From: Fibrobacter sp. UWB4
GTDB lineage: Bacteria; Fibrobacterota; Fibrobacteria; Fibrobacterales; Fibrobacteraceae
Assembly (NCBI RefSeq): GCF_002210345.1
Contig: NZ_MWQI01000001.1
Coordinates: 930,001 to 994,000 of the forward strand
Direction of reading: 5' to 3'
DNA length: 64,000 bases
Part shown: piece by piece, positions 2,173 to 31,546 of the stretch
Layout: every line of letters begins with the position of its first letter
Numbering within the stretch: the stretch's first letter is position 1
Program-made: the position numbers and the translations under genes
Notes under the pieces: generated by a model
Seen by the model: the letters and a program-made list of their open reading frames with translations, nothing else
Databases searched by the model: none
Told to the model about the DNA's origin: nothing

Positions 2173-2188
2173 AGCAAAAGGTGTGCCA
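2173..2188 (-). promoter_or_regulatory. Sigma-54 (-24/-12) promoter of pyrG
   Basis: On the minus strand the sequence is TGGCACACCTTTTGCT, with GG and GC exactly ten bases apart as the sigma-54 consensus requires. Transcription would start near 2161, leaving a leader of about 35 nt before the ATG at 2126. Confidence 0.8.
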
Positions 2189-2242
2189 AAAATCAAAAAC
2201 ATCGAAATTTGCAAAAATTTAAAGAATTATCTGTTTTGAAAT

Positions 2243-4589: not shown

Positions 4590-4605
4590 TGCAAAAAGTG
4601 TGCCA
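4590..4605 (-). promoter_or_regulatory. Sigma-54 (-24/-12) promoter of glnN
   Basis: The minus strand reads TGGCACACTTTTTGCA, with exact GG-N10-GC spacing. The predicted start is near 4578, about 30 nt before the ATG at 4547. Confidence 0.82.
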
Positions 4606-4627
4606 ATATGTAATTTGAGTGGTTTTA

Positions 4628-22890: not shown

Positions 22891-22906
22891 TGCAAAATGT
22901 GTGCCA
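22891..22906 (-). promoter_or_regulatory. Sigma-54 (-24/-12) promoter of glnB-amtB
   Basis: The minus strand reads TGGCACACATTTTGCA with GG-N10-GC spacing. The start would be near 22879, 34 nt before the glnB ATG. Confidence 0.82.
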
Positions 22907-22925
22907 AAAATTTTTCCGACACATA

Positions 22926-24212: not shown

Positions 24213-24229
24213 TGTTTCACATTAAAACG
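24213..24229. promoter_or_regulatory. TGTTTC-N5-GAAACA-like element before grpE
   Basis: TGTTTCACATTAAAACG has a perfect left half-site and a degenerate right half (two mismatches). It lies 19 bp before the grpE -24 box, almost the same place as the perfect palindrome before dnaK. Confidence 0.4.
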
Positions 24230-24247
24230 ATTTTTGACGCTTTTTAT

Positions 24248-24263
24248 TGGCATGGTATTTGCT
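24248..24263 (+). promoter_or_regulatory. Sigma-54-like promoter of grpE
   Basis: TGGCATGGTATTTGCT has GG-N10-GC spacing and differs from consensus only by T for C in the -24 box. The start would be near 24275 and the leader about 55 nt. Confidence 0.65.
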
Positions 24264-24329
24264 ATCTTTATGTCGGAATTGTAAAACAGATGTCCTCACG
24301 GACAATTTTTAAAGGAATATTGATATATC

Positions 24330-25019
24330 ATGGCTGAAGAAAAGAATCCGGAACAGAATGTTGAACCGAACGATGCTGATCGTGCTCAATTTGAACAGGA
24401 TGTGCTGAAAGCCGCCCAGGACGCGATGAATCTCGAAGCTGAAGTCAATGCTTCGGCAAGCTCAGCAACCGGCAATGCCAACGCCGAAAAGCCTGCTGAC
24501 GCCGAAGGTCAAAATGCAGAAGCACCAAAGGCCGAAGAAAAAGCCGCTGAACAGCCCGCAGCACCTTCCGCCGAAGAAATTCTGAAACAGCAGCTCGCCG
24601 ATGCCAACGACCGCAACTTGCGCCTGATGGCCGAATTCGAAAACTTCCGCCGCCGTAACGCCAAAGAACAGCTCGAACTCATCGAAACAGCCAACGGCAA
24701 GCTCCTCGAAAAGCTCTCCGAAGTCCAGGACAATTTCGAACGTGCTTTCGCCAGCGAAAACAAGGCTAAAGATCTCGAAGCTTTCGAAAAAGGCATGCAG
24801 ATGATTTACAACCAGTTCGCTAAGGTTCTCACGGACGCAGGCCTCGAACAAATCGACCCGACCGGCAAGGAATTCGACCCGAACCTCCACGAAGCTCTGA
24901 TGCAGCAGCCCTCCGAAACTATCCCGGAAGGTCATGTTGTCACCGTATTCCAGAAGGGTTACAAGCTCAAGAACAAAATCTTGAAGACCGCCAAGGTTAT
25001 CGTTTCCTCCGGAAAGTAA
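24330..25019 (+). CDS. grpE: Nucleotide exchange factor GrpE
   Basis: GrpE releases ADP from DnaK in the cytoplasmic chaperone cycle. The 229-residue protein has an acidic, Ala-rich N-terminal tail (1-85), a long coiled-coil, and the conserved core FENFRRRNAKEQLELIETANGKLLEKL near 105. The C-terminal part has GKEFDPNLHEALMQQPSE and VFQKGYKLKNKILKTAKVIVSSG, which are family hallmarks. A sigma-54-like promoter precedes it, which is unusual for a heat-shock gene. dnaK and dnaJ are 3-5 kb downstream, separated by unrelated genes. The gene ends in its own terminator. Confidence 0.95.
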   Translation: MAEEKNPEQNVEPNDADRAQFEQDVLKAAQDAMNLEAEVNASASSATGNANAEKPADAEGQNAEAPKAEEKAAEQPAAPSAEEILKQQLADANDRNLRLMAEFENFRRRNAKEQLELIETANGKLLEKLSEVQDNFERAFASENKAKDLEAFEKGMQMIYNQFAKVLTDAGLEQIDPTGKEFDPNLHEALMQQPSETIPEGHVVTVFQKGYKLKNKILKTAKVIVSSGK

Positions 25020-25039
25020 CCTAATCTTCCCCGTTTTTC

Positions 25040-25070
25040 AGCCCGACACTCCCCTGTGTGCGGGCTTTTT
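25040..25070 (+). terminator. Terminator of grpE
   Basis: AGCCCG / CGGGCT arms with inner ACAC/GTGT pairing, followed by TTTTTTAT. Confidence 0.8.
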
Positions 25071-25187
25071 TATATCCCCCGCTTTTGATAAATTGACAAT
25101 AGAGATTTACGCAAGCGATTAACCGCAAACATTTTCAGATATATCTTTGTTATTGGGTGTAGGAATTAACAAGGAATGGAGATCAAG

Positions 25188-27284
25188 ATGTTTGGTAAAA
25201 TCTTAACCGTTTCAGCGGTATTGGCTTGCGCTGCATTTGCACAGCATCCTATAATCACGACAAAGTATACGGCAGACCCCGCCCCCTATGTGCACGGCGA
25301 CACGGTGTACCTTTACACGACCCACGACGACGACAACGCCGACGGGTTCATGATGTACGACTGGCTTTTGTACACCTCCACCGACATGGTCAACTGGACG
25401 GATCACGGCTCGGTCGCATCCCTCAGCGATTTCAAGTGGTATAACTCCAACAACGGCGCATGGGCGGAACAGGTCATCGAACGCGACGGCAAATGGTACA
25501 TGTACTGCCCCATCCACGGTCACGGAATTTCGGTGCTCGTATCGGACAGTCCTTACGGCCCCTTCAAGGATCCGCTCAACGGCCAGCTCGTATGGCAGCG
25601 CCAACACTGGAACGATATCGACCCTACCGTTTGGATTGACGATGATGGCCAAGCTTACATGTACTGGGGCAACCCGGAACTCTACATGATCAAGCTGAAA
25701 AAGGACATGATCCACACGGAAGGTTCCATCGTGACCTACCCCAAAATCAAGGACTACCAGGAAGGGCCGTGGTTCTACAAACATGGCAAGTATTATTATA
25801 TGGCGTTCGCCTCCACTTGCTGCTCCGAGGGCATCGGGTATGCTATGAGCGACTCCCCCACTGGTCCGTGGAATTACAAGGGCGATATCATGCCGCATTC
25901 CCCGAAAAGCCGCGGCAACCACCCGGGCATCATCGACTACAAGGGAAAATCTTACGTTTTCGGCCTGAATTACCTGCTCTGGGCGGAATACCAGGCTAAA
26001 ATCGGACAGGCCTACAAGCATGCGGAACGCCGCTCGGTCTCCGTGGCCGAGATGCACTATAATGCCGACGGCACCATCCAGAAAATCGACTTCTGGCCCG
26101 AAAATGGCGTGGCGCAAGTGGAAGATTTTGACCCGTACAAGCGCGTCGAAGCTGAAACAATGTCTTGGAGCGAAGGTGTCAAGAGCCGTAACGCCAAGGA
26201 CGTGGGCAACGTCATCCTCACCAACATCGGCAACGGTGACTACACCAAAATTAGCGGCGTGGAATTCGGCGATGCAGGCGCAGAAAGTTTTTCTGCATCG
26301 GTGCTAAATGTCAAGAAGGCATCGAGTATCACGGTTCGCCTGGACAAGGTGGACGGCGAAATTGTTGGCAAGGCGGAATTTTCCGCAGACGGCCTCGTAA
26401 CAGTTCCGCTTACAGGCGCTGTCGGCAAACACGACGTGTTCTTCGTGTTCGCGGGCGATTTCGAAGCGGACTACTGGGAATTCGAGGACAGCAAAACGGC
26501 CATTCCGCAAAGCCCGTTCTGCAAGGCTAAACTCAAAGATGCAGAAGCCAAGTGTGATGTTCCAGTCGTAGGTGCAAGCGTTGAAGGCCCCGCAAACTTT
26601 ATTGACTTCGAAAATTACGATGTGGGCGGTGCAGGTAAGGCCTACTACGACATGGATTCCGAAAATCAAGGCAAGGAATACCGCGAAGACCGCGTGGACA
26701 TCGTGAAGAACGGCGACGGCTTTGCAGTGGGCTACACGCAGAAAGGCGAATGGCTGGAATACACCGTGAACGTCGAAACTAGCGGAACCCTCCCCTTCGA
26801 ACTTTCTTACGCAACAGGCATGGAAAGCGCAAGCGTACGATTCTTTATGGACAATGAACCCATCACCGATACACTCTCGCTTTCTGGAACCGATGACTTC
26901 GATACATACGCTACGTACAAAGGCAAAACAACCAAGGAACTCACCAAAGGCGAACACGTGCTCAAAGTCCTAATAACAAGCGACTACGTAAACCTCGACT
27001 GGATTGCCTTCGGTAAAATTGATGGCGATATTATGGACAAGCGCAATGGCACCACGGGCATCTTGCCGAAATTTGCTTCGGATGCTGCAAACGCTTTCGC
27101 AAAAAACGCAGGTGTTTACAAAGTCTTTGACTTGATGGGCAACATGCTCGGCAAAATCCGCTTAAACGCCGGAGCAACACTGACAGAAATCAAGAACGGA
27201 CTCAAAATTGCCGGTTATCACAACGGAGCTTATATCGTTCGCAACGCCATCGGACAGACCTTTAGAGTTAACTTCGGAAAGTGA
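25188..27284 (+). CDS. Secreted glycoside hydrolase family 43 enzyme with CBM6 modules
   Basis: The protein probably removes arabinose or xylose from arabinoxylan. A signal peptide (LTVSAVLACAAFAQ) is followed by the five-bladed GH43 domain. The catalytic residues fit DPAPYV (general base Asp), DIDPTVWIDDDG (Asp) and YQEGPWF (acid Glu). Two carbohydrate-binding modules of family 6 type follow, one beginning RVEAETMSW and the other FIDFENYDVGG with GYTQKGEWLEYTVNV. The last 60 residues (VYKVFDLMGNMLGKI...GAYIVRNAIGQTFRVNF) look like a C-terminal sorting domain. The frame is open from 25176, but the ATG at 25188 is preceded by GGAG and begins the signal peptide. It stands alone between grpE and a toxin-antitoxin pair. 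Confidence 0.9.
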   Translation: MFGKILTVSAVLACAAFAQHPIITTKYTADPAPYVHGDTVYLYTTHDDDNADGFMMYDWLLYTSTDMVNWTDHGSVASLSDFKWYNSNNGAWAEQVIERDGKWYMYCPIHGHGISVLVSDSPYGPFKDPLNGQLVWQRQHWNDIDPTVWIDDDGQAYMYWGNPELYMIKLKKDMIHTEGSIVTYPKIKDYQEGPWFYKHGKYYYMAFASTCCSEGIGYAMSDSPTGPWNYKGDIMPHSPKSRGNHPGIIDYKGKSYVFGLNYLLWAEYQAKIGQAYKHAERRSVSVAEMHYNADGTIQKIDFWPENGVAQVEDFDPYKRVEAETMSWSEGVKSRNAKDVGNVILTNIGNGDYTKISGVEFGDAGAESFSASVLNVKKASSITVRLDKVDGEIVGKAEFSADGLVTVPLTGAVGKHDVFFVFAGDFEADYWEFEDSKTAIPQSPFCKAKLKDAEAKCDVPVVGASVEGPANFIDFENYDVGGAGKAYYDMDSENQGKEYREDRVDIVKNGDGFAVGYTQKGEWLEYTVNVETSGTLPFELSYATGMESASVRFFMDNEPITDTLSLSGTDDFDTYATYKGKTTKELTKGEHVLKVLITSDYVNLDWIAFGKIDGDIMDKRNGTTGILPKFASDAANAFAKNAGVYKVFDLMGNMLGKIRLNAGATLTEIKNGLKIAGYHNGAYIVRNAIGQTFRVNFGK

Positions 27285-27307
27285 CACGGAGTATCATCCT
27301 GAGCGAA

Positions 27308-27334
27308 AAATCCTCCCCAGTGGAGGATTTTTTT
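27308..27334 (+). terminator. Terminator of the GH43 gene
   Basis: AAATCCTCC / GGAGGATTT stem with a short CCAGT loop and TTTTTTT tail. Confidence 0.85.
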
Positions 27335-27418
27335 CCTATCTATTCAGAAAAACAATATTCTTAATATATTACTTGTAATTTTGCTTAAAATATTGTATTT
27401 TTAGAAAGGAGGTTTCTT

Positions 27419-27664
27419 ATGCCTTGTATTTTGCCGGTATCCGATTTGCGTAATTACAACGAAGTTCTTCAGAATGTATCTGAAAAGTCTCCAGTATTCC
27501 TAACCAAAAATGGTCGGGGTTGCTATGTTGTCATTGACATTAAGGAGTACGAACGGATGGTTGCAGCTTTGAAACTCCAGAAGGCTCTTGCCGAGGGTGA
27601 ACGATCCGCTGAACAGGGTGGCTGGCTTTCCGCAGCCGATGTGCGGAAGAAATACGAGGTGTAG
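27419..27664 (+). CDS. Antitoxin of the Phd/YefM family
   Basis: The 81-residue protein matches the Phd/YefM fold: VSDLRNYNEVLQNVSEKSPVFLTKNGRGCYVVIDIKEYERM binds DNA, and the C-terminal tail should wrap the toxin. It neutralises the ParE-like toxin encoded immediately downstream and normally autoregulates the operon. AAAGGAGG six bases before the ATG is the strongest ribosome-binding site in this part of the window, in keeping with antitoxin excess. The stop codon abuts the toxin ATG. Confidence 0.92.
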   Translation: MPCILPVSDLRNYNEVLQNVSEKSPVFLTKNGRGCYVVIDIKEYERMVAALKLQKALAEGERSAEQGGWLSAADVRKKYEV

Positions 27665-27973
27665 ATGCCCGTCATCATTTTTTCGCCAAAGGCCTCCGAG
27701 GATTTGGATTCAATCAAAGCGTATATAGAATCTGAATTGGGCAGTCCTCAAGCGGCAAATAAAAAGGTTCTTGAAATCCTTGATGCCATCGACAACCTAG
27801 CCATTTTTCCTGAAATAGGTCCATCCTTAAAAGGCAAAGTAGATTCATTGAGTCGATATCGATGTTTATCTGTGTCGAATTGTATTGTCTTTTATCGAAT
27901 TGAACTTGACAAGGTACTTATTATCCGCATATTGAATAGTCGAATGAACTATTTGAAAATTTTGGAATTGTAG
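27665..27973 (+). CDS. Toxin of the RelE/ParE family
   Basis: The 102-residue protein has the ParE/RelE pattern: FSPKASEDLDSIKAYIESELGSPQAANKKVLEILDAI, then PEIGPSL and CIVFYRIELDKVLIIRILNSRM. ParE toxins act on DNA gyrase and RelE toxins cut mRNA on the ribosome. The target here cannot be told from sequence, though the helical hairpin and terminal NSRMNYLKIL are more ParE-like. It starts on the base after the antitoxin stop. The pair is a chromosomal type II module inserted between GH43 and dnaK and followed by a terminator. Confidence 0.9.
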   Translation: MPVIIFSPKASEDLDSIKAYIESELGSPQAANKKVLEILDAIDNLAIFPEIGPSLKGKVDSLSRYRCLSVSNCIVFYRIELDKVLIIRILNSRMNYLKILEL

Positions 27974-28014
27974 TATTCTCCCCCAACCTATTTAATACAT
28001 CACCGAAACCTTCC

Positions 28015-28055
28015 CGCCCTACGGTCGTCAGGATGACGTCGTGGGGCGTTATTTT
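28015..28055 (+). terminator. Terminator after the toxin-antitoxin pair
   Basis: CGCCC / GGGCG arms enclose GGTCGTCAGGATGACGTC, which has further pairing, and are followed by TTATTTTTT. Confidence 0.65.
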
Positions 28056-28096
28056 TTGAAACAGCCCTAAATTTGCCCGTTTTTAGCTCAAAAAAA

Positions 28097-28113
28097 TGTT
28101 TCAGAACGAAACA
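28097..28113. promoter_or_regulatory. TGTTTC-N5-GAAACA palindrome before dnaK
   Basis: TGTTTCAGAACGAAACA is a perfect inverted repeat with five-base spacing. It ends 20 bp before the dnaK -24 box. A similar but degenerate element sits 19 bp before the grpE -24 box. Confidence 0.55.
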
Positions 28114-28133
28114 AAAAGGGTGTTTTTCGGGGT

Positions 28134-28149
28134 TGGCACGGCTTTTGCT
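28134..28149 (+). promoter_or_regulatory. Sigma-54 (-24/-12) promoter of dnaK
   Basis: TGGCACGGCTTTTGCT, preceded by T, matches the consensus YTGGCACGrnnnTTGCW at every position. The start would be near 28161, giving a leader of about 65 nt. I see no CIRCE element (TTAGCACTC-N9-GAGTGCTAA) nearby. Confidence 0.85.
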
Positions 28150-28213: not shown

Positions 28214-30127
<1,914 letters not shown>

Positions 30128-30400: not shown

Positions 30401-31546
30401 ATGGCTGAAAAAAGAGATTATTACGAAGTTCTAGGCGTCGGCAAGGACGCAAGTGCTGATGAAATCAAGCACGCGTACAAGAAGCTTGCCATCAAGTACC
30501 ACCCGGACAAGAACCCGGGCGACAAAGAAGCCGAAGAGAAGTTCAAGGAGGCTGCCGAGGCCTACGACGTGCTCAGCAACCCCGAAAAGCGTAAACAGTA
30601 CGACCAGTTCGGCTTTAACGCCCCCGGTGGCGGTTTTGGTGGCGGCGGGTTTGGTGGAGCTGGCTTCGACCTCAACGACATTTTCTCGCAATTCGGCGAT
30701 ATTTTCGGTGGCGGATTCGGCTTTGGCGGCGGTGGCCGTCGTGGCGGTGCTCGCAAGGCCGGTCCTCCGCGCGGAAACGATTTGCAGATCAAGGTGGCGC
30801 TCAGCTACAAGGAAATCTTCGAAGGCTGCACCAAGAAGGTTCGCCTGAAACGCTACACGCCGTGTACGGAATGTAACGGCAAGGGCGGCCAGGACATCAA
30901 GGAATGCAGCACCTGCCATGGAACGGGTCGTGTGCGCCGCTCTACGGGCGGATTTTTCCAGATGATTACCGAGAGCGCCTGCCCCACCTGTAATGGTACG
31001 GGTGAAGTTATCGCGAAACCGTGTAGCAACTGCCATGGCGAAGGCCGTGTGCAGGAAACGGAAGAGATTTCCATCAAGATTCCGGCGGGCGTTGCCGAGG
31101 GCCAGTACCTGAACCTGCGTGGCGAAGGCAACTGCGGGCCTCGCGGCGGTGCCTGCGGCGACTTGCTGGTGGTGATTGCCGAAAAGCCCGATGACTTCTT
31201 CAGCCGCGAAGGCGACGACTTGCACTGCGAAGTCAAGGTGCCTATCCACAAACTGGTCCTTGGCGGGACTCAGCGCATTCCGACGCTTGACGGTAAAGAG
31301 GTGCAGATCAAGATTGCGGCCGGTACGCAGGCGGGCTCCATTTTGCGTTTGCGTGACCAGGGCCTGTACCCGCTGAACAAGCGCGGCGACCGCGGAAGCC
31401 TCTACGTGCAAATTGGCGTGGACATTCCGAAGGACATCTCTCGCGAAGAGAAGGAGCTTTACCAGAAGCTCGCCGAACTCCGCAAGGACAAGGAATCCGC
31501 TCAAGAAGAAAGTTTCCTCGAGAAGATGAAGAATCTTTTTAAGTGA
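30401..31546 (+). CDS. dnaJ: Chaperone DnaJ (Hsp40)
   Basis: DnaJ delivers substrates to DnaK and stimulates its ATPase. The 381-residue protein has the J domain with HPD ([10 protein letters not shown], residues 32-41) and a long Gly/Phe-rich linker. Four CxxCxGxG zinc-binding repeats follow: [24 protein letters not shown] and CSNCHGEG. Two C-terminal substrate-binding domains complete it. It is a full-length class I DnaJ. No sigma-54 site resembling those of grpE and dnaK is visible upstream, so it may rely on read-through or on a promoter inside the heptad array. Confidence 0.97.

Follow-up and report, generated by a model that had tools for sequence, protein, structure and literature searches.

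The window, that is, the whole stretch of DNA analysed here (64 kb from Fibrobacter sp. UWB4), contains the chaperone genes grpE, dnaK and dnaJ, the first two of which are preceded by a sigma-54-type -24/-12 promoter and, further upstream, by a palindrome that is a putative enhancer. The features are listed below with their positions in the window.

24213..24229, plus strand: degenerate putative enhancer palindrome of grpE, TGTTTCACATTAAAACG, with the core GTTTCACATTAAAAC (one mismatch versus GTTTCANNNYGAAAC)
24247..24263, plus strand: sigma-54 -24/-12 promoter of grpE, TTGGCATGGTATTTGCT, one position off the consensus (C to T)
24330..25019, plus strand: grpE, 229 aa (Pfam GrpE, E 1.3e-45)
28097..28113, plus strand: putative enhancer palindrome of dnaK, TGTTTCAGAACGAAACA, kept in relatives
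28133..28149, plus strand: sigma-54 -24/-12 promoter of dnaK, TTGGCACGGCTTTTGCT, an exact consensus match; box in 39 of 50 family genomes
28226..30127, plus strand: dnaK, 633 aa (TIGR02350, over cut-off)
30401..31546, plus strand: dnaJ, 381 aa, downstream of dnaK (TIGR02349, over cut-off)

The interval between grpE and dnaK (25176-27973) is occupied by a 702-aa gene resembling a glycoside hydrolase and by an apparent antitoxin-toxin pair (27419-27664 and 27665-27973), unlike in many relatives, where dnaK directly follows grpE.

Both boxes contain the GG-N10-GC core of the -24/-12 consensus. An initial annotation had claimed an exact sigma-54 promoter before dnaK and a near-exact one before grpE, accompanied by a palindrome that is perfect at dnaK and degenerate at grpE, and all of this held. 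The distance from this element to the -24 box had been given as 20 bp for dnaK and 19 bp for grpE; measured from the 15-bp palindrome core to TTGGCA it is indeed 20 bp at dnaK, and 18 bp at grpE. The pattern TTGGCAYR-N4-TTGCW occurs with at most one mismatch at 8 sites in the window versus 1.04 expected, and none of the shuffled sequences reached 8. The palindrome alone, with up to two mismatches allowed, was found 16 times versus 15.8 expected, which is not significant; its significance derives from its position and its conservation in relatives. In a genome-wide pattern search the dnaK palindrome proved to be the only exact TGTTTC-N5-GAAACA in the genome. CIRCE, which the initial annotation had not seen at either gene, is absent from the whole window even when three mismatches are allowed. 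That dnaK and grpE are under sigma-54 control, as was proposed, is thus supported as a strong inference without a mapped start site.

The exact pattern TTGGCAYG-N4-TTGCW occurs at only 8 sites in the 3.58 Mb genome, five of which precede dnaK, grpE, groES-groEL, clpB and htpG. The other three lie before a gene for a 270-aa sigma-70-family factor, before an acetolactate-synthase-like gene and upstream of a porin-like gene. With up to one mismatch there are 48 sites versus 16 for the reversed pattern. The identity of DnaK, GrpE, HtpG, GroES, ClpB and SecA was checked by profile matches, that of ClpB to TIGR03346 being end to end with a score under the cut-off. The search before groESL, clpB and htpG that the initial annotation had proposed as a check thus revealed the same kind of promoter at all three. 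The palindrome is less uniform: in Fibrobacter sp. UWB4 it is clear at dnaK and at secA but degenerate at both grpE and groES; at clpB it is unclear, and at htpG it lies 3′ of the promoter. The secA gene has a TTGGCACATCTTTTGCT box with TATTTCAACTTGAAACA just upstream and is, as inferred from these elements, probably also a member of the sigma-54 chaperone regulon.

Conservation of the boxes in related genomes, the lack of which had been named as a refutation of sigma-54 control, was examined in regions upstream of dnaK and groES, each from 50 genomes of the family, with one mismatch allowed and with expected counts from dinucleotide shuffles. The boxes are conserved. The -24/-12 box is present in 47/50 groES and 39/50 dnaK upstream regions (about 0.05 expected per set), and in all 11 dnaK upstream regions without a box dnaK closely follows grpE. 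A palindrome of the type GTTTCA-N3-TGAAAC is found in 37 of the 50 groES regions (0.15 expected) and in 39 of the 50 dnaK regions (0.25 expected). It should be noted that the family genomes are related and the counts therefore not independent; about ten genera are covered. A FISUMP domain in one member of the family, together with general resemblance, pointed to Fibrobacteraceae. At groES the boxes and the palindrome are conserved amid otherwise very different upstream sequence. An exact or near box also precedes clpB in eight genera (g1, g2, g3, g4, g5, g6, g7 and g10), and none is visible there in g11. As a control, the 400 bp before clpB were searched in 80 diverse bacteria. A -24/-12 box with at most one mismatch was present there in 3 of them, namely in a genome of the PVC group (L212), in an unclassified one from the rumen (L228) and in one of the Poribacteria (L254).

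The distance between palindrome and box varies considerably, being 10, 20, 31 or 48-51 bp at dnaK and between 31 and 148 bp at groES. When both genes are taken together, the distinct distances show a period of approximately 10.5-10.6 bp (p = 0.005 for dnaK, 0.003 for groES, and 0 of 5000 random sets for both jointly), although these p-values are optimistic because neighbouring distances share ancestry. An enhancer would be expected to vary in its distance while staying on the same side of the helix. Whether an activator or a repressor is involved had been left undecided by the initial annotation; spacing of this kind, variable but roughly in phase with the helix, favours an activator. It is therefore likely that GTTTCA-N3-TGAAAC is the enhancer of an activator, an inference for which there are no binding data.

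In model bacteria chaperone genes are controlled by sigma-32, HrcA, HspR or sigma-B. HrcA (PF01628) was over the cut-off in none of 61 family genomes, of which 46 are at least 90% complete, with positive controls matching and one of the 61 giving a weak sub-threshold match. CIRCE was not found in the family groES upstream regions examined. RpoH (TIGR02392, a proteobacterial model) was over the cut-off in 0 of 16 genomes; three sigma-70-family proteins match this model below the cut-off, one of them itself encoded behind a sigma-54 box. Control of the family's chaperones by CIRCE/HrcA or by RpoH was rejected, since these searches found neither, and the earlier claim that the scheme is not that of sigma-32 or HrcA is thus supported.

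Outside the family the picture is different. A classic CIRCE precedes groES in five other families of the phylum (f4, f5, f6, f8 and f10). In f2 and f9 the palindrome and a sigma-54 box are found before groES, and one genome there has a second groES with CIRCE. In f3 (L291-L297) three elements precede groES: a sigma-70-like promoter, the palindrome, and a CIRCE variant that reads TTAGCACTC-N9-GACTGCTAA or nearly so, GACTGCTAA replacing GAGTGCTAA; this arrangement could be an intermediate state. Given that CIRCE is still in use in several other families of the phylum, it appears, from sequence alone, that sigma-54 activation took the place of HrcA repression.

Promoters of the sigma-54 type are silent without an ATP-driven activator. 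The genome encodes seven proteins with a full sigma-54-interaction domain, one of which is the candidate:

C1:397395-398933 (L065:1384-2937), minus strand: NtrC-type enhancer-binding protein, 518 aa, with AAA+ sigma-54-interaction domain and Fis-type HTH

An orthologue was present in 11/11 family genomes examined, the only other near-universal activator being a PspF-like protein. A profile built from these 11 orthologues and run on 20 further genomes of the phylum gave one top match in most of them (1e-138 to 1e-191), the next proteins being at about 1e-113; in three genomes (G062, G065 and G151) the best matches are partial and weaker and orthology is uncertain. The gene is linked to chaperone genes in several families. 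For example, one genome (G006) has the unbroken order groES-groEL-grpE-dnaK-dnaJ-activator, and another (G011) the same order with one small gene in between. In f2 the activator follows dnaJ, and in f3, f5 and f6 it lies at the end of an hrcA-grpE-dnaK-dnaJ cluster, HrcA having been identified with TIGR00331 for G093 and by resemblance in the others. In Fibrobacter sp. UWB4 it follows not chaperone genes but a histidine kinase and a response regulator (L065:2948-5700). Such a kinase/regulator pair lies ahead of the activator in g1, g3, g10 and apparently g4 (L175, L176, L168, L182), and could be the input to an activator without a phosphoacceptor of its own.

The activator's GAFTGA-type loop reads GSYTGS in Fibrobacter sp. 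UWB4 and GAFTGA in several orthologues. At the position of the phosphoacceptor aspartate its receiver domain has Glu in Fibrobacter sp. UWB4, and most members of the class likewise have another residue there; the aspartate is retained in G017, G124 and most of the deeper families. Its HTH, with the motif ISRxTLWRK, is conserved across the phylum, unlike those of the other six activators of the genome. Autoregulation from a promoter of its own was considered and rejected, as in the genomes read the 250 bp ahead of the gene contain neither the palindrome nor a -24/-12 box. An RpoN box was not seen in the genome stretches read; Fibrobacteres genomes were counted as having RpoN in a 2011 survey (PMC3372290). 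The assignment of this activator to the palindrome rests on conservation, linkage and elimination and remains an inference without binding data.

The reading that we favour, with a probability of roughly 0.78 and without any experiment, is that the core chaperone genes (dnaK, grpE, groESL, clpB, htpG and probably secA) depend on the sigma-54 form of RNA polymerase, which transcribes them from their -24/-12 promoters, and that the GTTTCA-N3-TGAAAC enhancer is probably bound by the one NtrC-family protein encoded at C1:397395-398933. Upon protein stress this activator would turn the chaperone genes on by remodelling the closed sigma-54 complex. The signal may be the titration of chaperones or contact with the neighbouring kinase/regulator pair; since the receiver aspartate is mostly lost, plain phosphorylation is unlikely to be the signal. 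What the sequences themselves show is the promoters and palindromes and the conservation of both, the absence of HrcA and CIRCE, and the gene linkage. The action of this activator on this palindrome, heat or misfolding as the signal, and titration are only inferred. The further members of the regulon, a candidate for the activator, and the distribution of CIRCE and sigma-54 boxes across the phylum go beyond the initial annotation. There are points against this explanation: the lack of an RpoN box in the genome stretches read, the state of the enhancer at groES, clpB and htpG in Fibrobacter sp. UWB4, and the presence of the activator in the chaperone cluster of f5 and f6, even though groES there has CIRCE and no enhancer. 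And since in f3 the promoter that follows the palindrome is sigma-70-like and comes with a variant CIRCE, the protein that binds the palindrome may not work solely via sigma-54.

The alternative that survives best, unlikely as it is, is that the chaperone genes depend on sigma-54 but that another activator, most probably the PspF-like protein (C11:32165), which lacks a sensory domain, acts at the palindrome. Apart from the favoured activator, it alone among the activators occurs in nearly all family genomes examined, and there are no binding data that tie either protein to the palindrome. However, the PspF-like gene was not seen to be linked to chaperone genes, unlike the gene of the favoured activator, which lies in the chaperone cluster of several families. 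There is very little to recommend a second alternative, in which a repressor uses the palindrome as its operator and the sigma-54 promoters are run by an unrelated activator. The f3 arrangement speaks for it, but a spread of 10 to 148 bp from the -24 element, together with helical phasing, is ill-suited to a repressor that blocks the promoter. It is equally hard to maintain that the sigma-54 boxes are minor and the main chaperone transcripts start from unrecognised sigma-70-family promoters: the three sub-threshold RpoH matches would allow it, but the conserved elements upstream of groES are the -24/-12 box and the palindrome.

A 2025 survey predicted sigma-54 control of GroEL, GroES, GrpE, DnaJ and DnaK in Bacteroidota and Planctomycetota (PMC12316311). 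The prediction assigns the same core chaperone genes to sigma-54, but in other phyla; the word Fibrobacter is absent from its main text, for sigma-54 dependence it cites a Blattabacterium paper, and the passages bearing on the chaperone cluster name neither an enhancer motif nor a cognate activator. The heat-shock gene lonD of Myxococcus xanthus is activated by HsfA/HsfB (Ueki and Inouye 2002, cited in PMC9548883), HsfA being an activator of the NtrC type. There a single protease gene is concerned, whereas in the Fibrobacter family it is the core chaperone set, and orthology is not implied. The HrcA/CIRCE system of other families of the phylum also coordinates groESL and the dnaK operon, but by a repressor acting with sigma-70-type promoters, and it is absent from the Fibrobacter family. 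The proteobacterial sigma-32 (RpoH) regulon is likewise a whole set under positive control by an alternative sigma factor, but the class of sigma factor and the promoter differ from those of the Fibrobacter family, which has no RpoH over the cut-off. No paper on sigma-54 control of chaperones in Fibrobacter was found in the open-licence literature searched, which is no proof of novelty.

The simplest history, for which there is no phylogenetic reconstruction, would be that control passed to an activator linked to the dnaK cluster during the loss of HrcA, possibly more than once. The phylum holds what appear to be the old (HrcA/CIRCE), mixed and new states side by side, and several families already have the activator gene linked to the dnaK cluster, so that the switch is open to stepwise study. 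For Bacteroidota and Planctomycetota there is now a concrete enhancer and a candidate activator to look for. Since sigma-54 promoters need an activator, even basal levels of chaperones might depend on it. A bolder reading, no more than possible, is that in the switch of the phylum from HrcA repression to sigma-54 activation the activator encoded in the chaperone cluster came to sense free DnaK, DnaJ or GroEL via a receiver that no longer takes phosphate.

Two further observations concern other sigma-54 promoters of the genome. The 270-aa sigma-70-family factor (L067, G000:C5:2605, minus strand) has an exact sigma-54 promoter ahead of it, which is kept in six genera (g1, g2, g3, g4, g7 and g10; L386-L389, L392, L394), mostly without the chaperone palindrome upstream. 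A second, nitrogen-type group has TTGGCACA boxes (window 2173-2189, 4590-4606 and 22891-22907; L350; L076) and includes CTP-synthase-like, glutamine-synthetase-like, glutamate-synthase-like and purF-like genes and an ammonium transporter region. Several of these boxes have a TTTACA...TGTAAA palindrome in place of the chaperone one, as the initial annotation had held in stating that the two elements differ, and control of the chaperones by nitrogen was rejected for this reason.
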